The notes under the pieces are model-generated. The model worked only from the letters and a program-made list of their open reading frames with translations. It had not been told where the DNA came from and did no database searches. A stretch of DNA of 64,000 nucleotides from Flavimaribacter sediminis. Lineage in GTDB: Bacteria; Pseudomonadota; Alphaproteobacteria; Rhizobiales; Rhizobiaceae. Made by a program: the position numbers and the translations under genes. The stretch is taken from the NCBI RefSeq assembly GCF_019492055.1, contig NZ_JAICBX010000001.1, positions 310,001 through 374,000 on the forward strand, written 5' to 3'. This document shows positions 51,959 through 63,696 of the stretch, in pieces (position 1 is the stretch's first letter; the number at the start of each line of letters is the position of its first letter).

Positions 51959-52007
51959 TGCTGAGCATCATAAAGGTTGTCAAGTGTATATGCGGAGGCA
52001 AATGGAA

Positions 52008-53210
52008 ATGTCGGACGGTGCGGAACGGGTCTTGGTTGTGGGCGCAGGTCCGGTCGGTCTGGTAACGGCGGCCTGCCTCGGCGAAGCAGGCATTCCCGTC
52101 ACGGTTATCGACGCTTACGAAGAACTGCCAAAGGATCTGCGCGCGTCCACTTTCCATCCTCCGACCCTCGACATGCTCGACCGCTTCGGCATTTCCGAAA
52201 AGCTCATCGCGCGTGGACTGATCTGCCCGAAATGGCAGTTTCGGGATCGCGCGGAGGGCGTCGTCGCGGAATTCGATCTGGGACACCTGAAGGATGAAAC
52301 CAACCATCCCTATCGGCTGCAATGCGAGCAGTGGAAGCTGTCCGAGCACCTGCGCGAACTGATCGAAGACTCCGATCTGATCGATCTGCAATACGGGCTG
52401 GAGGGCCAGTCCGTGTCGCAGACCGACGACGGCGTTGTGCTGACGGTGCGCAATCCGGATGGATCCATTGGGGAGATGCGCGCGCGCTATCTGGTCGCCG
52501 CCGACGGGGCGCACAGCAATGTCCGCAAGTCGCTCGACATCGAATTCGAGGGATTGACCATTCCGGAAATATTCCTGTCGATGTCGACGGAGTTCGACTT
52601 CGGTGAGGCAATTCCGGATCTGGCGCCCATCGCCTATCTGACGGATCCGGACGAATGGGCGGTTCTTCTGCGAACGCCTTCGCTGTGGCGCGTCCTTTTG
52701 CCGACTGATCCGAACCTTACGGACGAAGAGATCAAGGCGCCCGACAACATGGAGATGCGTCTCCAGAAACTCTGCCCCAAACCCGGCCGCTACGACGTCG
52801 TCCACTCGACTGCCTACCGGGTGCACCAGCGCGTCGCGAAATCATACGTCAAGGGTCGGATTTTTCTGACCGGCGACGCCGCGCATCTCAACAATCCGCT
52901 GGGCGGCATGGGCATGAACGGCGGCATTCACGACGCCGTCAACCTGACCGAAAAACTTGTGCTTGTATGGCGCGGCGCGCCTCTGGAAAGCCTCGGTCGC
53001 TATGAACGGCAGCGCCGCAAGGTGGCGATCGACACGGTCCAGTCCCAGTCACTGCGCAACCGGCAGATCATGGCCGAAAATGATCCGGAAGCGCGCCGGG
53101 CGTACCATGACGAACTGCGGGCGATTGCCGCCGATCCGGCCCGGCACAAGGAGTATCTGATGAAATCGTCAATGCTCCAGTCTCTGCGCGATCTCGAAAA
53201 AGTCGAATAA
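52008..53210 (+). CDS. FAD-dependent monooxygenase (PHBH/UbiH-like)
   Basis: The 400-residue flavoprotein has the class A monooxygenase motifs: VLVVGAGPVGLVTAACLGEA (FAD), the DG motif YLVAADGAHSNVRKSL, and the GD motif IFLTGDAAHLNNPLGGMGMN. Such enzymes hydroxylate or oxidatively open aromatic and N-heteroaromatic rings with NAD(P)H and O2. I chose ATG 52008, with GGAGG nine bases upstream. It heads the right-going catabolic cluster and is divergent from the ABC importer, which suggests it attacks the imported compound. Confidence 0.92.
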   Translation: MSDGAERVLVVGAGPVGLVTAACLGEAGIPVTVIDAYEELPKDLRASTFHPPTLDMLDRFGISEKLIARGLICPKWQFRDRAEGVVAEFDLGHLKDETNHPYRLQCEQWKLSEHLRELIEDSDLIDLQYGLEGQSVSQTDDGVVLTVRNPDGSIGEMRARYLVAADGAHSNVRKSLDIEFEGLTIPEIFLSMSTEFDFGEAIPDLAPIAYLTDPDEWAVLLRTPSLWRVLLPTDPNLTDEEIKAPDNMEMRLQKLCPKPGRYDVVHSTAYRVHQRVAKSYVKGRIFLTGDAAHLNNPLGGMGMNGGIHDAVNLTEKLVLVWRGAPLESLGRYERQRRKVAIDTVQSQSLRNRQIMAENDPEARRAYHDELRAIAADPARHKEYLMKSSMLQSLRDLEKVE

Positions 53211-53234: not shown

Positions 53235-53981
53235 ATGACTGACAGTCTCGGCTACCGAATGAAATTCGGCGTCATTGCCCCTTCGACCAACACGTCCGTC
53301 CAGCCCGAATTTGATGATATGCGCCCGGTCGGTGTGACCAATCACTTTTCGCGCATCATCATTCCGGATGATCCAGTCCATTCGGACGAGGATTTCAACG
53401 AGCTCGTAATGCGAATTCGCGCCGAGACAATGAACGCCATCGATGCGGTCAAGACCTGTTCGCCGGGCGCAATGATCATGGGCATGTCCGCGGAAACCTT
53501 CTGGGACGGCAAGGAACGCGCCGACACGCTGAAGGCCCAGGTCGAGGAAAGGGCGGGTATGCCGGTCGCCATGGGCTCCGACGCCTGCCAGGCGGCTTTG
53601 GCGAAGATGGGCGGCATCAAGCGCATCGCAGTCATTACGCCCTATATGCCGATCGGCGACGAGCAGGTCCGCAAATTCTTCACCGATTGCGGCTATGAAG
53701 TCGTGACCGTGAAGGGGCTGAAATGCAAGAGTCCGATGCTGATCGCCCATGAAAGCGAACAGACGCTGCGCGACGCCATCATCGAGGTCAATGATCCTTC
53801 CGTCGAAGCGATCATCCAGGCGGGCACCAACCTCGCGATGGCGCGCGTGGGAGCAATTGCGGAGTTCTGGCTCGACAAGCCGGTCATCGCGATCAACACG
53901 GCGACCTACTGGCATGCGCTGCGCATGAACGGCATCGAAGACAAGATTCAAGGCTTCGGGTCGCTTTTATCCCATCACTGA
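53235..53981 (+). CDS. Asp/Glu racemase-family (maleate isomerase/AMDase-like) protein without the two cysteines
   Basis: The 248-residue protein matches the Asp/Glu/hydantoin racemase superfamily: MKFGVIAPSTNTSVQPEFDD, MIMGMSAETFWDG, VAMGSDACQAALAKMGGIKR and a C-terminal NTATYWHALRMNGIEDK. Aligned by eye with the paralogue at 58522, the two catalytic-cysteine positions are M84 and G197, so classical two-cysteine isomerisation looks impossible. It may be a decarboxylase-like, binding or otherwise altered enzyme. It lies 24 bases after the monooxygenase. Confidence 0.82.
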   Translation: MTDSLGYRMKFGVIAPSTNTSVQPEFDDMRPVGVTNHFSRIIIPDDPVHSDEDFNELVMRIRAETMNAIDAVKTCSPGAMIMGMSAETFWDGKERADTLKAQVEERAGMPVAMGSDACQAALAKMGGIKRIAVITPYMPIGDEQVRKFFTDCGYEVVTVKGLKCKSPMLIAHESEQTLRDAIIEVNDPSVEAIIQAGTNLAMARVGAIAEFWLDKPVIAINTATYWHALRMNGIEDKIQGFGSLLSHH

Positions 53982-54000
53982 GCCGGAGCGCGGATCCCTC

Positions 54001-54912
54001 ATGCACTACGACTATGTTCCAATATCCAAACGAAATCCGCTGCGCTGGCCGAATGGCCAGCGTCTCGCGATTTTTCTGACCATCAATTTCGAGTACTGGG
54101 ATCCGGTGCAGGAGTCCGAGAAGCCCTATTATCCGGGCGGGCCGGGTATTGTCGGTGGCAATCTGCCGGGTAATGTCTACGACAATCCGAATTTCACCTG
54201 GCGCGAATACGGTCAGCGGGTTGGCGTCTGGCGGTTGTTCGACGTCCTCGACGCCGAAGATGTTGCGGCGAGTTGCACGATGAATGCGAAAATGGCGCTC
54301 GAGCGGCGCGAAGTCATTGACGCGGCGCTGGAGCGGGACTGGGAAATCGTCGCCCACAATTATGTCCAGGACGAACTGTTGACGGACTACATGTTCGACG
54401 AGGCGGCCGAACGGGATGTCATCCGCCGCACGCTGGACGTCTACGAGCAGGCGGTCGGCAAGAAGGCCAGGGGCTGGCTGTCGAGTTCGTTGCGCTCTAC
54501 GCTCAATACGATCGATATCCTGGCTGAAGAGGGGCTGCTTTTTATCACGGACCTACTCAATGACGATCAGCCCTATCTGGTGGAGACCCGGTCGGGACGC
54601 CCGATGGTGTCCATTTCCTACACATCCGAAGTGAATGACTTCAGTTTCCTTCGTCAGGGTTTGACGGTCGACACCGGCTTCCAGATGTTCAAGGAACAGT
54701 TCGACTGGCTTTATGCGGAAAGCGAGACGAGCGGGAGGTTCATGAACATCGGCCTGCATCCGCATGTCATCGGGCAGCCGTTCCGCATTCGCGCCCTGCG
54801 GGACTTTATTCGCTACGCCAAGCAGTTCGATGGCGTCTGGTTTGCCAAGCGGGAGGACATCGCTACATGGTATCTCGACCACCATCAGGAACACATCCCT
54901 CCGAAAGGGTGA
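54001..54912 (+). CDS. polysaccharide-deacetylase-family hydrolase (PuuE/imidase-like)
   Basis: The 303-residue protein belongs to the NodB-fold subgroup seen in allantoinase PuuE and bacterial cyclic-imide hydrolases: NGQRLAIFLTINFEYWDP, FTWREYGQRVGVWRLFDVLD, WEIVAHNYVQDELL and a C-terminal IGLHPHVIGQPFRIRALRDF. There is no signal peptide, which argues against a cell-wall sugar substrate. Ring opening of a cyclic amide or imide is therefore plausible. It sits 19 bases after the racemase-family gene and two bases before the GntR gene. Confidence 0.85.
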   Translation: MHYDYVPISKRNPLRWPNGQRLAIFLTINFEYWDPVQESEKPYYPGGPGIVGGNLPGNVYDNPNFTWREYGQRVGVWRLFDVLDAEDVAASCTMNAKMALERREVIDAALERDWEIVAHNYVQDELLTDYMFDEAAERDVIRRTLDVYEQAVGKKARGWLSSSLRSTLNTIDILAEEGLLFITDLLNDDQPYLVETRSGRPMVSISYTSEVNDFSFLRQGLTVDTGFQMFKEQFDWLYAESETSGRFMNIGLHPHVIGQPFRIRALRDFIRYAKQFDGVWFAKREDIATWYLDHHQEHIPPKG

Positions 54913-54914
54913 GC

Positions 54915-55631
54915 ATGTTCAGTGGAAATGGCCGTTCCGGCGCCGCCGACGCCGAAATTCTGGCGGGTGAACTTGATCTCGAAGAGATCGAGAGACCGGC
55001 GGAACGGGCCTACCAGGGAATACGCCATGCGATCCTGAGCGGCGCTCTGCCGGGCGGTTCGCACCTTCCCGAAGAAGCGCTTGCCCAGATGACCGGGACA
55101 AGCCGCACGCCCGTACGTGAAGCCCTGCGCCGTCTCGTCGCCGAGGGGTTGGCACGCGCCGACAACCGGCACCGCTATGTGGCCGATTTTTCATACCAGG
55201 AACTCAAGATCGTGTTCGATATCAGGGCCAGGCTTGAGAGTTACGCGTCCCGCGTCGCAGCCGAACTGATAACCAAGGCCGAGATTGCCGAACTGGAGCG
55301 CATCGTCGAACAGATTGATGAAATCGGAGAGACCGAGGATCCTGCGCAGATCCGGCTGTTCGCCGACCTGAACACACGGTTTCACACGACTATCGTCGAG
55401 GCCACCCGATCGATACAGATGCAATCGTTGACCGCACAGGCGATTTCGCTGCCGCTTGAATTGATCAAACAGTTCGTCTGGGAGCAGCGCATCAACATCA
55501 CTCGCTCCAACAACCAGCACCGCGATATTGTTGCGGCCTTGCGGGCGCGCGATCCGGAATGGGCCGAAACCGCAATGTCGGGACACATCCTTTCCACACG
55601 TCCGCGCCGCAAGGCGATGTCGTTGAGCTGA
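54915..55631 (+). CDS. GntR-family regulator, FCD type
   Basis: The 238-residue regulator has an N-terminal winged helix (RAYQGIRHAILSGALPGGSH, then EEALAQMTGTSRTPVREALR) and a helical FCD ligand domain. FCD acids and histidines are seen in FDIRARLESYASRVA, DLNTRFHTTIVEAT and NQHRDIVAALRARD. FCD domains bind metal plus an organic acid. It is embedded in the cluster, two bases after the hydrolase gene, and probably controls it through the TTGTACACAA pair. Confidence 0.9.
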   Translation: MFSGNGRSGAADAEILAGELDLEEIERPAERAYQGIRHAILSGALPGGSHLPEEALAQMTGTSRTPVREALRRLVAEGLARADNRHRYVADFSYQELKIVFDIRARLESYASRVAAELITKAEIAELERIVEQIDEIGETEDPAQIRLFADLNTRFHTTIVEATRSIQMQSLTAQAISLPLELIKQFVWEQRINITRSNNQHRDIVAALRARDPEWAETAMSGHILSTRPRRKAMSLS

Positions 55632-55643
55632 ACGGAACTGCCA

Positions 55644-56471
55644 ATGAGCTATCGTCATTCTTCTCTCGACGGCCGCGTTGTCATCGTCACAGGCGGCGCT
55701 CGCGGTCTCGGAAAGGAGATGGCTCTGGAACTCTCGGAAGCCGGAGCGAACCTTGTCATTACGGGATCCGCCGGGTCTGCTGCGCTGGATGAGACTGCAG
55801 CGCTCATGCCGGCCGATCGGACCTTGGCTTTGGCCGCGGACGTTGCGGATCCACAGGCCGGCGAAAGCGTCGCCGCCGCGACGATTGCGCGTTTCAGGCG
55901 CATCGACGTGCTGGTCAACAACGCCGGCCGCGGCATGCGCCTCATAAGCGAGACATTCAACACGAAACCGACCAAATTCTGGGAAGCCGATCCGCAATCC
56001 TGGAAGTCGATCATCGATATCAACGTAAACGGAACCTTCAACATGGCGCGCGCGGTTGCCCCCGACATGATCGCGCGCGGTTTCGGCAAGATCATCAACG
56101 TCTCGACGTCCGATCAGACGATGGTCAGGCGCGGGTACTCCCCCTATGGACCTTCGAAGGCGGCGCTTGAAGCGGCGTCGCGCGTATGGGCGCAAGACCT
56201 TGAAGGCACGGGCGTCGACGTCAATGTCTATCTGCCCGGAGGGGCCGCCGATACGGATTTGCTGCCTCCCGGACCTGCAAAGAAAGGCGCGGACGGCAAC
56301 CTTCTTTCGCCGGCGATCATGCGCCGTGGCATTGGCTGGCTGTGTTCGGACGCGTCCAATGGCGTTACCGGCGCGCGGTTCATCGCCCGGCTGTGGGACG
56401 AATCCCTGGATGCGGAAACCGCCGCGGCGGGGGCGCGATCTCAGCACGTCGAACGACCATCCATAATGTGA
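55644..56471 (+). CDS. short-chain dehydrogenase/reductase
   Basis: The 275-residue SDR has the nucleotide motif VIVTGGARGLGKEMALELSE, VLVNNAGRGM, the catalytic Ser in INVSTSDQT and the YxxxK pair in YSPYGPSKAALEA. The family oxidises or reduces alcohols with NAD(P). It lies 12 bases after the GntR gene and seven before the MBL gene. It probably handles a hydroxyl or carbonyl group generated in the pathway. Confidence 0.9.
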   Translation: MSYRHSSLDGRVVIVTGGARGLGKEMALELSEAGANLVITGSAGSAALDETAALMPADRTLALAADVADPQAGESVAAATIARFRRIDVLVNNAGRGMRLISETFNTKPTKFWEADPQSWKSIIDINVNGTFNMARAVAPDMIARGFGKIINVSTSDQTMVRRGYSPYGPSKAALEAASRVWAQDLEGTGVDVNVYLPGGAADTDLLPPGPAKKGADGNLLSPAIMRRGIGWLCSDASNGVTGARFIARLWDESLDAETAAAGARSQHVERPSIM

Positions 56472-56477
56472 GGCGCC

Positions 56478-57356
56478 ATGTTCAAGCTCGGCCCTGCCAC
56501 CGTGAGCAAGATCGTCGACTTCGATCCCTTTGTTCTTCCGTTCGATTTCCTGCTGCCCGGCCGGGATCCGGCGGAACTCGCCGGTCAATCCGCAGTGCTC
56601 TCTCCCGATCACGTGGACTTCAAGACAGGCAGCATCCTGCTGAGCCTGCACAGCTTCGTGCTCAGGATCGGCGGATTGACGGTGCTCATCGATACCTGCG
56701 TCGGCGAGCACAAACCGCGCGCGCGCCGGCAAGACTGGGATCAAAGACACGACACCGGCTATTTGACGCGCCTGGCGGCCGCCGGTTTTGCGCCTGAAGA
56801 CATCGATATCGTGATGTGCACGCATCTGCATGCAGACCATGTCGGCTGGAACACCAGGCTTGAGAACGGCCGCTGGACGCCGACATTCCCAAATGCGCGC
56901 TATGTCATGGGCCGAAGCGAACTGGATCATTGGCGTGATCTGGAAAGCCGTGAACCTGGCAAGCACAATCATGGTTGCTATGCCGACAGCGTCTTGCCGG
57001 TTGTGGAAGCCGGTCTCGTCGAAGAGGTCGACGACGGTTTCGAACTGACGTCAGGTCTGGAAATTATCCCTCTCCACGGGCATTCCCCAGGTCAGATCGG
57101 GCTGGACCTGAATTGCGGCGACGGCGGCCATGCGCTGTTCTGCGGCGATGCGTTTCATTCCCCGGTCCAGATATTTCGTCCGCATTGGAGCAGCGCGTTT
57201 TGCCACGACGCCGTGCAGGCCGGCGAGCTTCGCCATCAACTGGCTGAACGATGCGCGGGAGACGGCGCGCTCCTCATGCCCGCGCATTTGCGAGGCAGCA
57301 GCGGGATGCGCGTTGAAGGAAACGACGTCTCCGGTTTCCGGCCGGTATTTGTGTGA
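56478..57356 (+). CDS. MBL-fold metallo-hydrolase
   Basis: The 292-residue protein has the metallo-beta-lactamase signature CTHLHADHVGWN with the HxHxDH ligands. Later ligands are in IIPLHGHSPGQIG and LFCGDAFHSP, and an ending of the family occurs near LLMPAHLRG. Cytosolic MBL proteins of this type hydrolyse lactones, thioesters or amides. It is the last plus-strand gene of the left half of the cluster and converges with the second GntR gene. Confidence 0.9.
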   Translation: MFKLGPATVSKIVDFDPFVLPFDFLLPGRDPAELAGQSAVLSPDHVDFKTGSILLSLHSFVLRIGGLTVLIDTCVGEHKPRARRQDWDQRHDTGYLTRLAAAGFAPEDIDIVMCTHLHADHVGWNTRLENGRWTPTFPNARYVMGRSELDHWRDLESREPGKHNHGCYADSVLPVVEAGLVEEVDDGFELTSGLEIIPLHGHSPGQIGLDLNCGDGGHALFCGDAFHSPVQIFRPHWSSAFCHDAVQAGELRHQLAERCAGDGALLMPAHLRGSSGMRVEGNDVSGFRPVFV

Positions 57357-57368
57357 TCACCGAAGCCG

Positions 57369-57445
57369 CTGGTGGAGCAACTTTGACATTCGAGTCCCGC
57401 AAGACGCGAACTCGTTTTCAAATGTCAGATTTAGAGCTCCACCAG
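57369..57445. repeat. imperfect inverted repeat 1
   Basis: CTGGTGGAGC (57369-57378) and GCTCCACCAG (57436-57445) form a perfect 10-base outer pair, with inner TGACATT/AATGTCA also facing. It may be a hairpin terminator for the MBL operon or an end-to-end miniature element. Confidence 0.5.
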
Positions 57446-57459
57446 AAATATAATCTGGC

Positions 57460-57534
57460 TAGTGGTCCTGAAGATTCCGACATTTGCTACAGGACAAGTC
57501 GCATCGGGAGGCAAATGTCGGAATCGGACCACTA
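57460..57534. repeat. inverted repeat 2
   Basis: TAGTGGTCC (57460-57468) plus GATTCCGACATTTGC (57473-57487) pair with GCAAATGTCGGAATC (57511-57525) plus GGACCACTA (57526-57534). The left arm has an extra TGAA. The 24-base arms with a short centre resemble a bidirectional terminator or a miniature transposable element. It overlaps the stop codon of the second GntR gene. Confidence 0.55.
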
Positions 57535-58317
57535 AGCGGATTGCCGGCCTCGCCTGATGCGCATTCTATAGGTCATCTGGTCAGCCGGGTGCCAGTTGAA
57601 GGAAGCGATCAACACGCCGGAATCCGTAATGTAGCGCCTCAGGATCTGAAGTGAGCGCGATTCTGCGGGAAGCCCCAGCGACGCGGCGATTTCCGGCGGC
57701 ATGGCCTCCGCCCGAATTTCCTGCTGCGTCTCCTTGATCGTTTCGCGCGAATATCCTTCGAGAATATTGAAGAATGGCCCCTGGTAGGTCGCCAGTTCCG
57801 GGATCACCGCTTCAAAGCGCTCGGGGATGAAGCTCTGGATATAGCAAATCGGTCGACCGCCGGGTTCGGTCCAGCGTATGCCGTCGACGCGGATCCACTG
57901 TTCCCCTTCCTGTCCGCCAACCCGCTCGGCGAGCTTTGCGTCAAGCGTGACAGTCTTGTTGCCCAGAACGACAAGGTAGGTGTCGAGGGCGATCTGGAAC
58001 AGTTCCTGCAGCGATTCGAACGACTGATAGTAGCCGGACAGCGGTTTGGCCGAGATTACTCGCGTTCCCATACCCTGACGGCGCTCGACATAGCCGTCTT
58101 CCGTCATGCAGCGCAGCGCCTCACGAATCGTGAAGCGGCTGGTGTCAAACTCCTGAGCCAGCTCGGCTTCGGTCGGGATAAGCCTTCCGACGGGATAGAC
58201 GCCATTGGCGATTCGGCCGACCAACTCCTTCTGTATCCGGGAGTAGCGGGGACCGGACGATTCGTCGCTCATCTGGCTATCTTCGCTCGGACTGTTCTTC
58301 TTCAGTGACTGCTCCAT
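57532..58317 (-). CDS. GntR-family regulator, HutC/UTRA type
   Basis: The 261-residue regulator has an N-terminal winged helix (YSRIQKELVGRIANGVYPVG, then TEAELAQEFDTSRFTIREAL) and a UTRA ligand domain (LQELFQIALDTYLVVLG, PICYIQSFIPERFEAVIP and the C-terminal ITDSGVLIASFNWHPADQMT). The start is ATG 58317, within a 17-bp tandem duplication. It is divergent from the maleate-isomerase gene. HutC-type operators often read TTGTC-NN-GACAA, which matches the class 1 palindromes in this region. Confidence 0.9.
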   Translation of the reverse strand: MEQSLKKNSPSEDSQMSDESSGPRYSRIQKELVGRIANGVYPVGRLIPTEAELAQEFDTSRFTIREALRCMTEDGYVERRQGMGTRVISAKPLSGYYQSFESLQELFQIALDTYLVVLGNKTVTLDAKLAERVGGQEGEQWIRVDGIRWTEPGGRPICYIQSFIPERFEAVIPELATYQGPFFNILEGYSRETIKETQQEIRAEAMPPEIAASLGLPAESRSLQILRRYITDSGVLIASFNWHPADQMTYRMRIRRGRQSA

Positions 58318-58334
58318 TTGAGTGACTGCTCCAT
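58304..58334. repeat. short tandem duplication over a start codon
   Basis: AGTGACTGCTCCAT occurs at 58304-58317 and again at 58321-58334, a 17-base period. It duplicates the start codon of the HutC-type gene. The second copy would start a ten-codon out-of-frame peptide. Confidence 0.6.
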
Positions 58335-58457
58335 GGCGATCTTCCTCTGAAGATCCGGAATCGCTCCTGTTCGCAACTGTATCTCGTTAATGCGCCGAAA
58401 CCGGCCACCGAATTCGATGACTGATACGGCAGTGGCCGCGAGACTGCAAAGAGAAAA

Positions 58458-58471
58458 TTGATACGGACAAA
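58458..58471. promoter_or_regulatory. weak class 1 operator-like site
   Basis: TTGATACGGACAAA keeps the GACAAA half and spacing of the class 1 palindrome, but its left half is poor. It lies about 50 bases before the maleate-isomerase start, in the promoter region shared with the HutC-type regulator. Confidence 0.3.
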
Positions 58472-58521
58472 TAGATCACGCCTTTGCCAATTCGTCATTA
58501 TCAACTATAGATTATCAGGCA

Positions 58522-59268
58522 ATGAAAGCAAAACACCAGTCCACCTATTCCAGCCGGGCCAAACTCGGGCTCATCGTTCCGCCAACGAACACCGTCAACG
58601 AGGCGGAGTGGGCGCGCATGGTTCCGGACGGCGTGACATACCACACCCACAGGATGAGTCTGCATTCCGATACACATACCGAAGCTGGCGAAGCCGCGCT
58701 CTACGCCGACCTCGACACGGCGATCGGCATGCTGGCCCAGTGCGGCGCCGATGCGATCGCCTATGCATGCACCGCCGGGTCCATGATAACGCCTGCGCAG
58801 TCGATGCCTGACAGGCTGAGCGAGCGCACCGGTCGACAGTGCGTCACAACGTCGGCCGCAATTATTGACGCCCTGAAAACGCTCGGCGTGGTCCAACTTT
58901 CGGTCGCAACCCCCTATGCCGACGCTTTGAACGCCCATGAAACCGAATTCCTGGAAGCGCACGGCTTCGAGGTGTTGCGGCTGATCGGGCTCGGCATTGG
59001 AGCCGGCGGTCCGAGCGAGTACCCGCGCATCGCCAGGACGCCGCTTGAAGCCGTCGCGGACCACGCCAGGGCGGCGTTCGTCCCGGGCAGCGACGCGCTT
59101 CTTGTCACCTGCACCGATTTCCCGACCCTGCCTCTGGTCGAAAGCCTCGAGGCTGAATTGGGCGTTCCGGTTGTCACCTCCAATCAGGCGACCTTCTGGT
59201 CGATGCTGCGCGCCGTCGGCGTGCAGGACCGGTTCCAGCCATTTGGTCGCCTCCTTTCCAGCCACTGA
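58522..59268 (+). CDS. maleate cis-trans isomerase-like protein (Asp/Glu racemase superfamily)
   Basis: The 248-residue protein keeps both catalytic cysteines of maleate isomerase: C83 in YACTAGSM and C197 in LVTCTDFPTLP. The substrate-binding PPTNTVNEAEW and TSNQATFWSMLRA are also typical. Maleate isomerase converts maleate to fumarate through a cysteine adduct. It starts the second half of the cluster, divergent from the HutC-type regulator. The paralogue at 53235 lacks both cysteines. A substituted maleate is a possible substrate. Confidence 0.88.
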   Translation: MKAKHQSTYSSRAKLGLIVPPTNTVNEAEWARMVPDGVTYHTHRMSLHSDTHTEAGEAALYADLDTAIGMLAQCGADAIAYACTAGSMITPAQSMPDRLSERTGRQCVTTSAAIIDALKTLGVVQLSVATPYADALNAHETEFLEAHGFEVLRLIGLGIGAGGPSEYPRIARTPLEAVADHARAAFVPGSDALLVTCTDFPTLPLVESLEAELGVPVVTSNQATFWSMLRAVGVQDRFQPFGRLLSSH

Positions 59269-59299: not shown

Positions 59300-60160
59300 A
59301 TGGCCGATCCAGCTCTGAAAAATGCAATCCGTTCCGGGGACCTGATCCTGGCGCCCGGCGTTTTTGAAATGATTTCGGCGCTGATCGCCGACGAAGTCGG
59401 CTTCAAGGCGCTTTACGTCACCGGCTACGGAACGGTTGCGTCCTACCTCGGGCTTCCGGACGCCGGTATCGCAACCTATTCGGACATGATCGACCGTGTC
59501 GCAAGCATTGCCGGCCGCACGAAAACACCGGTCATTGCGGACGCCGACACCGGATACGGGGGCCTTTTGAACGTCCGTCATACTGTTCGCGGTTATGAGC
59601 AAGCTGGCGTAACCGCGATCCAGCTGGAGGATCAGGAGTTTCCGAAGAAGTGCGGTCACACGCCCAACCGGCGCGTTGTGCCGCTGGAAGACATGATCCG
59701 GAAGATCGAGGTCGCCATCGACAGCAGGCGGAGCGATGACTTCCTGATCATCGCCAGAACGGACGCGCGAACGGGTCTCGGCCTCGACGAGGCGATCAAA
59801 CGCGGCAAGGCCTTCGCGAAGGCTGGCGCCGACATTGTCTTCGTGGAATCGCCCGAGTCCGAGGAGGAAATGCAGCGTGTCGCGGATGAGATCGATGCGC
59901 CGTTGATGGCCAATATCGTCAATGGCGGCCGGACGCCGTTATTGTCTGCGGACACATTGCAGTCGCTCGGTTTTGCGGTCGCTATCCATCCCGCGATCGG
60001 TTTCCTGTCCATGGGAGCGGCGCTGAAGAATGCCTATACGGATCTCTACCGGAATGGGGAGACCAGCAAGGCGATCGACCTCTATGATTTCCAGCAGTTC
60101 AACGAACTGCTCGGCTTCCCGGACATCTGGGAGTTCGAAAAGAAATACGTTTCGGCTTGA
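59300..60160 (+). CDS. isocitrate lyase/PEP mutase-family C-C lyase
   Basis: The 286-residue alpha/beta barrel has APGVFEMISALIADEVG, the Mg site VIADADTGYGG (D81, D83) with QLEDQEFPKKCGH (E110, D111), and the catalytic loop KKCGH with C118. The cysteine loop marks true lyases such as methylisocitrate, dimethylmalate or oxaloacetate-type cleavers, and not PEP mutase. It probably splits a 2-hydroxy (malate-like) acid to a 2-oxo acid plus another acid. The LeuCD-like genes downstream could supply such a substrate. A second homologue begins at 63929. Confidence 0.9.
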   Translation: MADPALKNAIRSGDLILAPGVFEMISALIADEVGFKALYVTGYGTVASYLGLPDAGIATYSDMIDRVASIAGRTKTPVIADADTGYGGLLNVRHTVRGYEQAGVTAIQLEDQEFPKKCGHTPNRRVVPLEDMIRKIEVAIDSRRSDDFLIIARTDARTGLGLDEAIKRGKAFAKAGADIVFVESPESEEEMQRVADEIDAPLMANIVNGGRTPLLSADTLQSLGFAVAIHPAIGFLSMGAALKNAYTDLYRNGETSKAIDLYDFQQFNELLGFPDIWEFEKKYVSA

Positions 60161-60203: not shown

Positions 60204-60266
60204 ATGACAACGAAGCGAGCGTCAGCCATGAAGTTCGGATTTCCGCATTGGAGGCGCGTGTCATGA
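60204..60266 (+). CDS. possible 20-residue leader peptide
   Basis: ATG 60204, preceded by GGAGAG, opens a 20-codon frame (MTTKRASAMKFGFPHWRRVS). Its stop overlaps the SDR start as ATGA. It could be a translational-coupling leader. Only the ribosome-site-like sequence and overlap support it. Confidence 0.3.
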   Translation: MTTKRASAMKFGFPHWRRVS

Positions 60267-60994
60267 GCCGCCGGATCGCGATCCTTGGCGGGGCAGGGGG
60301 CATCGGGCGCGCCCTCGTCGCGGCGCTGACGGAAGCGGGGGACGACGTCGTCGTTCTCGACCTTCCGGCATCCATCGAACGCCATCGTCCCACGACGCGG
60401 ACGATCGACATCGATGTGCTTTCGGAGGAGGCGATCAACACTGCCGCTCGCGAACTTGCCGACCATTGGCCGGCAGTCGACGGGTATGTCCATTTGGCCG
60501 GCTACAATCCCTCGATCCATTCCGTGGCCGACACGCCAACGGACTATTTCGACAATATCGTTTCCGGAAACCTGCGGGGCGCCTTCCTGTCGGCGAAGGC
60601 GATCATGCCTTTGATGTCCGATGGCGGCAGCGTCGTCATGATCGCCTCCGGCCTCGGCCGCTACATCCGCCCCGGCTTCGCATCCTATGCCTCGGCCAAA
60701 GCCGGCCTGATGGCGCTGGCCAATACGCTGGCGCTCGAATATGCGCCAAAGGTGCGGGTCAACACCGTGGCGCCCGGCTTCGTCGATACGGCGTTTTCGC
60801 ACGGCGGCACGGGCATCTCCGACGAAACCGCCGAAATCGAAGTCGATCTCGCAAAATATGTCAGCGTCATTCCGCTCGCGCGCGTCGCCGAGCCGGAAGA
60901 CATCGTCGGCCCGATCCGCTTTCTGCTTGGGCCCGAGAGCGCCTACATGACCGGCCAGGTGCTGTGGGTCAATGGCGGCGCATACATGCCGTGA
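60263..60994 (+). CDS. short-chain dehydrogenase/reductase
   Basis: The 243-residue SDR has IAILGGAGGIGRALVAALTE, a HLAGYNPSIHS loop in place of NNAG, catalytic Ser in MIASGLGRYI, and YASAKAGLMAL for the YxxxK pair. It ends with the family's ILLGPESAYMTGQ-type region and VNGGAYMP. I chose ATG 60263, with GGAGG eight bases upstream. It lies between the lyase and the LeuC-like gene and probably acts on a hydroxy or oxo intermediate. Confidence 0.9.
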   Translation: MSRRIAILGGAGGIGRALVAALTEAGDDVVVLDLPASIERHRPTTRTIDIDVLSEEAINTAARELADHWPAVDGYVHLAGYNPSIHSVADTPTDYFDNIVSGNLRGAFLSAKAIMPLMSDGGSVVMIASGLGRYIRPGFASYASAKAGLMALANTLALEYAPKVRVNTVAPGFVDTAFSHGGTGISDETAEIEVDLAKYVSVIPLARVAEPEDIVGPIRFLLGPESAYMTGQVLWVNGGAYMP

Positions 60995-61010
60995 GGTTGG
61001 AGTATCGGTA

Positions 61011-62414
61011 ATGGTCGCGCAAACGCTCTATGACAAGATCTGGGACAGCCACGTGGTCGCGGACCGCGGCAATGGCGAGCATCTCATCTATGTCGATCGC
61101 CACCTGGTGCAGGAAGTGTCGAGCCCGCAGGCTTTTGCGGCCCTTGACCAGGATGGACGGAAGGTCCGCTGTCCGGAGGCGCACATCGCCGTCGCCGACC
61201 ACGCCGTGCCGACATTGCGCGGCGACAGGCCATTCGCCGAAGGCCTTGCGTTTTCCCAGGTCGAACGCCTCAAGGAAAACGCCGCGAAACACGGCATCGC
61301 CTATATGCCCATGGATGGCGAACGACATGGCATCGTTCACGTCATCGGCCCTGAACTGGGTTTCACCTTGCCAGGCGTCGTTCTTGTATGCGGAGACAGT
61401 CACACCTGCACCCATGGCGCCTTTGGGTGCATCGCCTTCGGCATAGGGGCCAGCGAATGCACCAGTATCTTCGCGACGCAAACGCTTCGCCAGCGCAAGC
61501 AGAAGACGATGCGGGTCAATCTGGAGGGCGGATTGCCGGACGGCGTAACCGTCAAGGATGTCATTCTTGCTCTCATCGCCGAAATCGGAACCGGCGGCGG
61601 CGTCGGATACGCCCTGGAATACGCCGGATCCACCGTGCGCGAGCTTTCGATGGCGGCCCGCATGACGCTCTGCAACATGTCGATCGAGGCTGGAAGCCGG
61701 GTCGGCGTCGTGGCGCCGGACGAAAAGACGTTTGCATACCTCGAAGGCCGTCCGCTGGCGCCTTCGGGCGATGCCTGGAAGCAGGCCATGGCGGCATGGT
61801 CTGATCTGCATAGCGACGCTGATGCGGTTTTCGATCGCGAGGTGACGTTCAATACCGCTGATCTGGCGCCACAGGTCTCCTGGGGAACGACCCCGGAGCA
61901 CACATGCGCGGTCACGGGTCAGGTGCCCGATCCGGAACGGGAAGCGGATCAGAACAGCAAGTCGAGACTGCGCAAGAGCCTTGCCTATATGGGCCTGGAG
62001 CCGGGAACCGCAATTCGCGACATCCCGGTCGACCGCGTGTTCGTCGGATCCTGCACCAATGGCCGTCTGGAAGACCTGCGGGCGGCGGCGCAGGTGCTTT
62101 CCGGCAGGAAGGTGGCGGACAGCGTCAAGGCGATCGCGGTGCCGGGATCGGCTGCCGTCAAGATCGCCGCGGAGCGCGAGGGCCTGCACGAGATATTCCT
62201 GTCCGCCGGCTTCGAATGGCGTGACGCGGGATGTTCGATGTGTGTCGCGATGAACGACGACCGGCTTGCCGAGGGCGAGCGCTGCGCCTCAACCTCCAAC
62301 CGCAATTTCGAAGGTCGTCAGGGCAAGGGCGGACGCACCCACCTGATGAGCCCGCCGATGGCTGCGGCAGCCGCCGTAACCGGAAAGATCACCGACGTGC
62401 GGGAGCTGTTGTGA
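61011..62414 (+). CDS. aconitase-superfamily hydro-lyase, large subunit (LeuC-like)
   Basis: The 467-residue protein follows LeuC: TLYDKIWDSHVV, YVDRHLVQEVSSPQAF, VLVCGDSHTCTHGAFG and cluster cysteines C348 (VGSCTNGR), C408 and C411 (CSMC). It would carry a 4Fe-4S cluster and pair with the next gene. LeuCD homologues include isopropylmalate, citraconate/maleate and dimethylmaleate hydratases. No leuA or leuB is nearby, and catabolic genes surround it. Hydration of a (substituted) maleate is therefore favoured over leucine synthesis. ATG 61011 has GGAG upstream. Confidence 0.9.
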   Translation: MVAQTLYDKIWDSHVVADRGNGEHLIYVDRHLVQEVSSPQAFAALDQDGRKVRCPEAHIAVADHAVPTLRGDRPFAEGLAFSQVERLKENAAKHGIAYMPMDGERHGIVHVIGPELGFTLPGVVLVCGDSHTCTHGAFGCIAFGIGASECTSIFATQTLRQRKQKTMRVNLEGGLPDGVTVKDVILALIAEIGTGGGVGYALEYAGSTVRELSMAARMTLCNMSIEAGSRVGVVAPDEKTFAYLEGRPLAPSGDAWKQAMAAWSDLHSDADAVFDREVTFNTADLAPQVSWGTTPEHTCAVTGQVPDPEREADQNSKSRLRKSLAYMGLEPGTAIRDIPVDRVFVGSCTNGRLEDLRAAAQVLSGRKVADSVKAIAVPGSAAVKIAAEREGLHEIFLSAGFEWRDAGCSMCVAMNDDRLAEGERCASTSNRNFEGRQGKGGRTHLMSPPMAAAAAVTGKITDVRELL

Positions 62415-62416
62415 CC

Positions 62417-63058
62417 ATGGAAAAGTTCACCACAGTCAAAAGCGTCGCCGCGCCGCTTCTGGAAAACGCGATCGACACCGACGTCATCTTTCCGGCGCGC
62501 TTTCTGCTGTTGCTCGACCGCGAGGGCCTTGGCCGCTACGCTTTCAGCGAACGCCGCAACGGGCCTGAGCCTTTCGTGCTCGACACGCCGCCATACGATA
62601 CGGCGAAGATCCTTGTGACCGGCGAGAATTTCGGCACGGGCTCCAGCCGCGAGCAGGCGGTATGGACCATCGCCGATCTCGGTATACGCTGCGTGATCGC
62701 CAGGAGTTTCGGCGAGATCTTTTTCGCCAACTGCTTCAAGAACGGCGTCCTGCCTGTCCGCCTCGGCGGAGACGATATGGCGGCGGTGGAGCGCGCCGCC
62801 GAGGCGGCGGAAGAGATCACGATCGACCTGGAGGCCCAGTCGATCCGGCTTTCGTCAGGACGCGAGATCCGCTTCGACATCGAACCGAACCTCAAGCGGT
62901 TGTTGCTCTTGGGTCTCGACGAGGTCGGCATGATCCTCGCCGAGGACGGGGACGCCATCAAGGCTTTCGAAGCGCGACGGAAGGCGGATCAGCCCTGGAT
63001 GTCGATTGGCATCGAAAAATTGCATGCACTGGCCGAAGAACAGGATAAAAACGGATGA
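62417..63058 (+). CDS. aconitase-superfamily hydro-lyase, small subunit (LeuD-like)
   Basis: The 213-residue swivelling domain has VAAPLLENAIDTDVIFPARF, LVTGENFGTGSSREQAVW, ARSFGEIFFANCFKNGVLP and a C-terminal helical tail. These are the LeuD/DmdB substrate-binding motifs. ATG 62417 is preferred, with GTG 62411 overlapping the large-subunit stop as an alternative. The two subunits form one enzyme. Its stop overlaps the amidase start. Confidence 0.9.
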   Translation: MEKFTTVKSVAAPLLENAIDTDVIFPARFLLLLDREGLGRYAFSERRNGPEPFVLDTPPYDTAKILVTGENFGTGSSREQAVWTIADLGIRCVIARSFGEIFFANCFKNGVLPVRLGGDDMAAVERAAEAAEEITIDLEAQSIRLSSGREIRFDIEPNLKRLLLLGLDEVGMILAEDGDAIKAFEARRKADQPWMSIGIEKLHALAEEQDKNG

Positions 63059-63696
63059 GCACCAGCGAAAATCTTCTCGATAACTACAAGCGGGCCTATG
63101 ACAACCGGATCGGTTTCGGCGCCAGACCTGCCCTGATCATGATTGATTTCGTGCAAGCCTATTTCGAACCGGAGTGCGAGCTTTACGCCGGCGTGGAGGA
63201 CACCCTCAAATCGGCGCTGAGAATACGAGACAAGGCGCGCGAATGCGGCGTGCCGATCATCCTGACCAATGTGGTCTATCAGGCCGGCGGGTGCGATGGC
63301 GGGCGGTTCTTCCAGAAGGCCAGGCCGCTCCGAAACTTCATTGCAGGCAATCCCATGGGCGCCTGGCCGGAAGGGCTGGACGTCGCCGAAAACGAGATCG
63401 TGATCTCCAAACAGTATCCCAGCGCCTTCTTCGGCACGTCGCTGGCCTCAACGCTGGCGACATTAGGCGTCGACACGCTCGTTCACACAGGCGTCACCAC
63501 AAGCGGCTGCGTCCGTGCGACCTGCGTCGACTGCTGCTCTCACGGTTTCATTCCGATCATCGCGCGCGAAGCGGTCGGTGACCGGCATGCCTCTCCCCAC
63601 GAGGCCAATCTGTTCGACATGGACGCCAAATACGGCGACGTCGTCGATGAGGAAGAGATCCTCGATTATTTCGAGAAGACGAAGATATCCGGTTGA
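63055..63696 (+). CDS. isochorismatase-family cysteine amidohydrolase (maleamate amidase/carbamoylsarcosinase-like)
   Basis: The 213-residue enzyme has the Asp-Lys-Cys triad: D31 in MIDFVQAYF, K119 in VISKQYPSAFFGT, and C152 in GVTTSGCVRATCVD. The FFGT and TTSGCVRAT motifs match N-carbamoylsarcosine amidase and maleamate amidase (NicF-like). These release ammonia from an amide or carbamoyl group. It is coupled to the LeuD-like gene by ATGA. In this cluster, hydrolysis of a half-amide to a dicarboxylate is the natural role. Confidence 0.9.
   Translation: MSTSENLLDNYKRAYDNRIGFGARPALIMIDFVQAYFEPECELYAGVEDTLKSALRIRDKARECGVPIILTNVVYQAGGCDGGRFFQKARPLRNFIAGNPMGAWPEGLDVAENEIVISKQYPSAFFGTSLASTLATLGVDTLVHTGVTTSGCVRATCVDCCSHGFIPIIAREAVGDRHASPHEANLFDMDAKYGDVVDEEEILDYFEKTKISG

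Follow-up and report, generated by a model that had tools for sequence, protein, structure and literature searches.

Two Asp/Glu-racemase-fold proteins in a Flavimaribacter sediminis gene cluster, one of them from a clade without either catalytic cysteine

Within a window of 64,000 nucleotides of the Flavimaribacter sediminis genome, which is the whole stretch of DNA analysed, two genes encode proteins of the Asp/Glu-racemase superfamily, designated P1 and P2 (Table 1). One or two catalytic cysteines are the defining feature of this superfamily. P2 has cysteines at positions 74, 83, 107, and 197, including the pair Cys83/Cys197 that had been claimed for it in an earlier, sequence-only reading of this DNA. 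P1 has cysteines at positions 75, 118, 152, and 164, and its catalytic positions are occupied by Met84 (site of the first cysteine, Cys1) and Gly197 (site of the second, Cys2). This assignment, made by eye in the sequence-only reading, was confirmed by a multiple alignment of P1 with the P2 family, arylmalonate decarboxylase (AMDase; 2vlb), and the maleate isomerases 2xec and 4fq7, in which a hydroxyl residue directly follows each Cys site in P1 and P2 alike. Cys75, Cys118, and Cys152, the residues that might have taken the place of the catalytic ones, align with neither site; they are retained in 51, 41, and 51 of 70 close relatives, respectively, and Cys164, not named before, in 53. A pairwise alignment of P1 and AMDase can set Gly74 on Gly83, one residue off, which again brings no cysteine into the site. 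The identity between P1 and P2 is 28% over 248 columns. The host genome encodes four Pfam Amdase proteins; the two besides P1 and P2 retain both cysteines, which leaves P1 as the sole member without them.

Relatives of P1 were drawn from whole genomes, 80 named contigs (with at least 581 encoding places among the candidates), and plasmids. Their profile scores are bimodal, at 160 bits or more versus 107 bits or less, and the clade sample comprises 135 distinct members, none of which has a cysteine at position 83, 84, or 197. Among the scored members, Gly197 is found in 134 of 134, Gln195 in 132, Asn199 in 129, and Ser85 in 127, while position 84 is taken by Met (101), Ile (16), Leu (6), His (5), or Val (3). 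The cysteine-bearing relatives from the same loci, which lie outside the clade, have Cys84 (22/22), Cys197 (24/24), and Asp at position 199 (22). The two joint states, M/I/H/V/L84 with QxGxN versus C84 with [ILV]xCxD, occur in the sample without intermediates. The loss of the cysteines is a property of the clade and is due neither to chance nor to error; a cysteine-less clade with a coupled active-site swap is likely to be a new element. The motif MGMSAETFW, which had been put forward as a possible clade marker, holds for the close subclade (G83, S85, E87, T88, F89, and W90 in 70/70 each, M84 in 68/70) but varies in the wider clade, where QxGxN is the constant feature.

In a tree of 95 rows, a quick calculation without bootstrap in which 4ix1, 2dgd, and AMDase are on long branches, 49 clade representatives stand on one side of a branch with a Shimodaira-Hasegawa-like approximate likelihood ratio (SH-aLRT) support of 99, and P2 falls into another group beside the maleate isomerases, with support of 81. 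P1 and P2, described as paralogues in the sequence-only reading, are on separate branches of the family and thus not recent paralogues. A second cysteine-less paralogue, 43–47% identical to P1 and with the motif MSAITFYGG or similar, was seen beside the monooxygenase in four other clusters. The genomes of one alphaproteobacterial family of genomes (three of those sampled) carry 4–9 matching homologues each, several of them in the clade, which is a lineage expansion.

The gene for P1 is under purifying selection. Nei-Gojobori estimates against seven relatives gave 0.035–0.18 for nonsynonymous (dN) and about 0.9–1.6 for synonymous (dS) divergence, the ratio dN/dS being about 0.03–0.16. P1 is more conserved than the partner encoded at the same locus in 39 of 40 loci for the monooxygenase, 21 of 21 for the isochorismatase, 17 of 17 for P2, and 26 of 30 for the PuuE-like hydrolase, a comparison that is somewhat in favour of P1, since the loci were chosen by similarity to it. 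This selection bias notwithstanding, the constraint is unlike that of a decaying or dispensable protein, and the earlier statement that the gene is conserved in operons is supported. A frameshift, a sequencing error, or a decayed copy is ruled out by a relative in another genus, Rhodobacter xinxiangensis, that is 94% identical (among the matches listed), together with a dN/dS of about 0.03.

P1 is predicted to retain the pseudo-symmetric two-domain fold of the Asp/Glu/hydantoin racemase superfamily, the fold motifs having been noted in its sequence before. The AlphaFold2 model, built with 70 relatives, has a mean predicted local distance difference test (pLDDT) value of 92.8 and a predicted template modelling (pTM) score of 0.91. 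Its best solved match is 2xed, a maleate isomerase with a covalent succinyl-cysteine (Z 30.7, root-mean-square deviation 1.9, 234 residues), followed by Iso of Pseudomonas putida (Z 29.6) and AMDase (Z 28.7); overall, Z is 24–31 to AMDase and maleate isomerases and 13–18 to racemases. The closest solved structure is thus that of the maleate cis-trans isomerases (Nocardia farcinica 2xec/2xed; P. putida Iso 4fq7). In these enzymes, Asn17 and Tyr133 bind carboxylate. They correspond to Asn19 and Tyr137 of P1, which are found in 133/133 and 126/134 clade members, respectively. Unlike these residues, the catalytic pair Cys76/Cys194 of the N. farcinica enzyme is replaced by Met84/Gly197, and the second carboxylate Asn by Pro167. 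By the alignment, Gln195 of P1 precedes residue 197 by two positions and stands where a strand ends; it may therefore extend into the room vacated by Cys2. Both cysteines are present in P2, which, judged by its sequence, is an ordinary Cys/Cys enzyme and, in place of P1, the sister of the maleate isomerases. P2 and its relatives have a GGPSEY-like insertion at the second carboxylate Asn, and for that reason P2 may isomerise something other than maleate. Another protein of the same fold, OPAG_01669 of Rhodococcus opacus (4ix1, function unknown), has Gly at both Cys positions, as the P1 clade has a non-Cys residue at each; its branch, a very long one, is not part of the clade, and the protein has no QxGxN and represents a separate cysteine-less lineage.

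Table 1. Coordinates of P1, P2, and the surrounding genes in the window
Feature	Position	Strand	Remark
P1, Cys-less member of the AMDase/maleate-isomerase fold, 248 aa	53235..53981	+	Met84 = Cys1 site, Gly197 = Cys2 site
Codons of Met84-Ser85 in P1 (Cys1 site and next hydroxyl residue)	53484..53489	+	
Codons of Gln195-Ala196-Gly197-Thr198-Asn199 in P1	53817..53831	+	clade signature QxGxN, replacing [ILV]xCxD
P2, Cys83/Cys197 enzyme, 248 aa, predicted sister branch of maleate cis-trans isomerases	58522..59268	+	
FAD-dependent (group A) monooxygenase	51984..53210	+	closest solved relatives PnpA (6ain), HspB (7da9)
PuuE-like polysaccharide-deacetylase-family hydrolase, cyclic amide/imide type	54001..54912	+	by homology
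GntR/FCD regulator, start uncertain	54867..55631	+	
Short-chain dehydrogenase	55644..56471	+	
Metallo-beta-lactamase-fold lactonase-like hydrolase	56478..57356	+	
GntR/UTRA regulator between the two operons	57532..58317	-	
PEP-mutase/isocitrate-lyase family C-C lyase, close to methylisocitrate lyase	59300..60160	+	
Second short-chain dehydrogenase	60263..60994	+	
LeuC-like hydratase large subunit, start uncertain	60972..62414	+	
LeuD-like hydratase small subunit	62417..63058	+	
Isochorismatase-family amidase	63055..63696	+	closest solved relative N-carbamoylsarcosine amidohydrolase

In the window, P1 is the second gene of a run in which it is preceded by the monooxygenase and followed by the PuuE-like hydrolase, a GntR regulator, a short-chain dehydrogenase, and the metallo-beta-lactamase-fold hydrolase, the gaps not exceeding about 25 bp. 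Past the reverse GntR gene, a second run comprises P2, the C-C lyase, a short-chain dehydrogenase, the LeuC- and LeuD-like subunits, and the isochorismatase-family amidase. The closest match of the PuuE-like hydrolase is PuuE allantoinase. Concerning the solved relatives of the monooxygenase, PnpA hydroxylates a phenol and HspB a hydroxypyridine. The monooxygenase of the cluster resembles HspB, and its last steps resemble maleamate/maleate handling; degradation of nicotinate or nicotine is not claimed as its function, no dihydroxypyridine dioxygenase having been seen in it. Maleimide, citrazinate, or a vitamin B6 product as substrate would each fit some of the genes, and none of these names was adopted. 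The LeuC/LeuD-like pair, standing in a catabolic run, is likely not involved in leucine synthesis and was also observed at three other loci. No account of a catabolic cluster with this gene set was found in the open-access literature searched.

Neighbours were counted within a radius of 6 kb around 100 non-redundant clade members (less than 85% identity), with genes from these loci only as seeds, a choice that may overlook partners of other types. A group A flavin monooxygenase is present near 36 of the 100, one of the HpaB type near 4, and one of the luciferase/RutA type near 2; a PuuE-like hydrolase is found near 34, an isochorismatase near 24, and hydantoinase A/B near 4. Taken together, 42 members have a flavin monooxygenase of any of these three unrelated types and 55 an amide hydrolase of any type. 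With roughly 15 strong group A monooxygenase genes in the 5.69 Mb of the host genome, chance alone would place one near about 3% of the members, although a binomial significance of 36/100 against this value is overstated, as the loci share ancestry. Gene order varies: the genes run in one direction in the window and diverge in Caulobacter and sphingomonads, and the order is PSD-ISO-P1-FMO-PEPM-P2 (polysaccharide-deacetylase-family hydrolase, isochorismatase, P1, flavin monooxygenase, PEP-mutase-family lyase, P2) at one locus; the recurrence of the same members in different orders argues for a functional link. One clade member (L116:8001-9862) was seen beside a RutA-like luciferase-family monooxygenase and an oligopeptide-type ABC transporter.

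The clade extends into a biosynthetic context. The pigment indigoidine is a pyridinedione assembled from glutamine in its cyclised form (a pyridine-2,6-dione). IgiC of the Leisingera/Vogesella indigoidine operon is, in Leisingera, a member of the clade by profile score and by its QxGTN motif; it is 46% identical to P1, from which it differs in the motif at the Cys1 site (AVSPDGYW versus GMSAETFW) and in an operon that is biosynthetic, not catabolic. Clade members in plasmid records of Leisingera and Rhizobium jaguaris are 43–46% identical to P1, retain QVGTN, and have a cysteine at neither site. Their clusters encode a TetR regulator, a hydroxyisobutyrate-dehydrogenase-like protein, a non-ribosomal peptide synthetase (AMP-binding, peptidyl carrier protein, and thioesterase domains), a tautomerase, and a transporter in the gene order igiRBCDFE, a shorter version being found in Bradyrhizobium elkanii. 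Such IgiC-type members in indigoidine-synthetase-like clusters were observed at three loci, also on conjugative rhizobial plasmids. By its position in an indigoidine operon, IgiC ties the clade to the same class of substrates as that suggested by the catabolic neighbours. It is annotated as arylmalonate decarboxylase or glutamate racemase, the former name also being given to igiC in Table 2 of PMC5014874; according to a statement in PMC12826045, igiB and igiC were implicated genetically in indigoidine production by earlier work on igi mutants (Cude et al. 2012).

The preferred explanation, to which a probability of roughly one half is given, would make P1 a working enzyme that needs neither a cofactor nor cysteine, takes oxidised N-heterocycles as substrates, and stands between the FAD monooxygenase and the PuuE-like hydrolase. 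The upstream monooxygenase would produce an oxidised N-heterocycle, that is, a hydroxypyridone/pyridinone or a cyclic imide, as the substrate of P1. In the active site, the carbonyl or oxyanion groups would be held by Asn19, Tyr137, Ser85, and Thr198, while the lactam or imide edge would be bound by Gln195 and Asn199 where Gly197 leaves room. The single most likely reaction would be an enolisation, i.e., a ring tautomerisation by which the hydrolase would receive its substrate as the dione, with hydrolysis of the ring or a decarboxylation without Cys ranking next. Tautomerisation is slightly favoured, because a cyclic-amide hydrolase can open a hydroxylated ring only once this has adopted the dione form. 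The product would be passed on to the PuuE-like hydrolase, and the open chain would be finished by the isochorismatase-family amidase, P2 as Cys/Cys cis-trans isomerase, the LeuCD-like hydratase, and the methylisocitrate-lyase-like lyase. Several points weigh against this proposal. The functions of the neighbouring genes are assigned by homology and the geometry of the P1 residues by alignment; gene neighbours indicate membership in a pathway, not the step, and with the seeds used 35 of the 100 clade members have neither partner type nearby. As for the indigoidine operons, insertions in igiC might exert a polar effect on igiD, and indigoidine synthetase alone suffices for indigoidine in other hosts, for which reason IgiC may be accessory.

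P1-type proteins are publicly annotated as arylmalonate decarboxylase. Another possibility for P1 is that an activated carboxylate held by the AMDase dioxyanion hole loses CO2 and the carbanion is protonated by water or another residue. P1 matches Pfam Amdase (PF17645) with 63.6 bits, above the gathering score of 25.9 (P2, 111.3 bits), and shares with AMDase of Bordetella bronchiseptica (2vlb/3dg9) the fold, Tyr137 (Tyr126), the hydroxyl residue after the Cys1 site (Ser85; Thr75), Gly or Met instead of Cys1, and a hydrophobic residue at the position of the second carboxylate Asn of maleate isomerase, where Pro167 of P1 corresponds to Val156 of the AMDase hydrophobic pocket. The identity in structure alignments is 16–19%, however, and P1 has Gly197 in place of Cys188, apart from which no proton donor has been described for AMDase (PMC4996985), so decarboxylation, one of the alternatives named in the sequence-only reading, is disfavoured in its AMDase form. 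The search criteria for AMDase (G74, C188, LMGTSLSF, and ILLSCGGL) fail on P1, which has IMGMSAETF and IIQAGTNL at the two motifs, and P1 remains far below the cut-offs of the NCBIfam equivalog models for AMDase (NF052327; 59.6 bits versus 225) and for EutA of ectoine utilisation (TIGR02990; 62.2 bits versus 318), as P2, too, is below both. Since AMDase membership fails on the tested features, the public name should not serve as function, and P1 as a decarboxylase of another kind is considered unlikely.

A role for P1 as a hydrolase is judged equally unlikely. In that case, P1 itself would open the oxidised ring with a water molecule activated by a polar residue such as Glu87 or the Gln/Asn pair, leaving a later amide to the PuuE-like enzyme. 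Such a role would be in line with the clade members that adjoin hydantoinase A/B and MlrC-like hydrolases and with Glu87 in 70/70 proteins of the close subclade; in the wider clade, however, Glu87 is found in 108 of 134 members, with D, L, I, or V elsewhere, and dedicated amide hydrolases already adjoin P1. Still less probable is a non-catalytic role, in which P1 would bind a reactive quinonoid compound formed by the monooxygenase and protect it or pass it on. Both catalytic cysteines are gone and the P1-type gene is tightly adjacent to that of the monooxygenase in 26 of 36 loci, yet the pocket residues are nearly invariant over the 135 members and the surrounding catalysts evolve faster than P1. 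Also against this role, no fusion of a P1-type protein to a partner, the monooxygenase included, was seen, long frames looking like upstream extensions or out-of-frame run-ons. Of the non-catalytic role considered in the sequence-only reading, this binding function would be what is left; a decayed or idle protein is disfavoured by the equally conserved set now at the sites (Gly197, Gln195, Asn199, and Ser85), by the low dN, and by the conservation of P1, the highest among the enzymes of the cluster. The poorest candidate is a racemase or isomerase of the usual type with other residues as acid and base: the fold is the same, and Asn19, Arg40, Tyr137, Asn221, and Arg230 are common to the clade and its Cys-type relatives, but since residue 197 is an invariant Gly and residue 84 is mostly hydrophobic, an acid or base is missing from its usual place on both faces of the pseudo-symmetric site.

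Summarizing, a chemistry other than thiol acid-base catalysis, as had been suspected, is judged likely for P1. A wider proposal, held a little more tentatively than the reading of P1 as a cysteine-independent heterocycle enzyme, is that thiol acid-base catalysis has given way, in a large clade of the AMDase fold, to a network of amide and hydroxyl groups (QxGxN and Ser85), with a cofactor-free reaction of a new kind whose substrates would be pyridinediones or cyclic imides and which would be common to heterocycle catabolism and indigoidine biosynthesis; hundreds of genes would then be misnamed arylmalonate decarboxylase, and this systematic misannotation would be corrected. That both cysteines are absent from a widespread clade under tighter constraint than its partners suggests that a well-studied biocatalytic scaffold supports a reaction not yet characterised. 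Direct tests thereby become possible, both of what igiC does in indigoidine operons and of a heterocycle-degradation cluster not described before.

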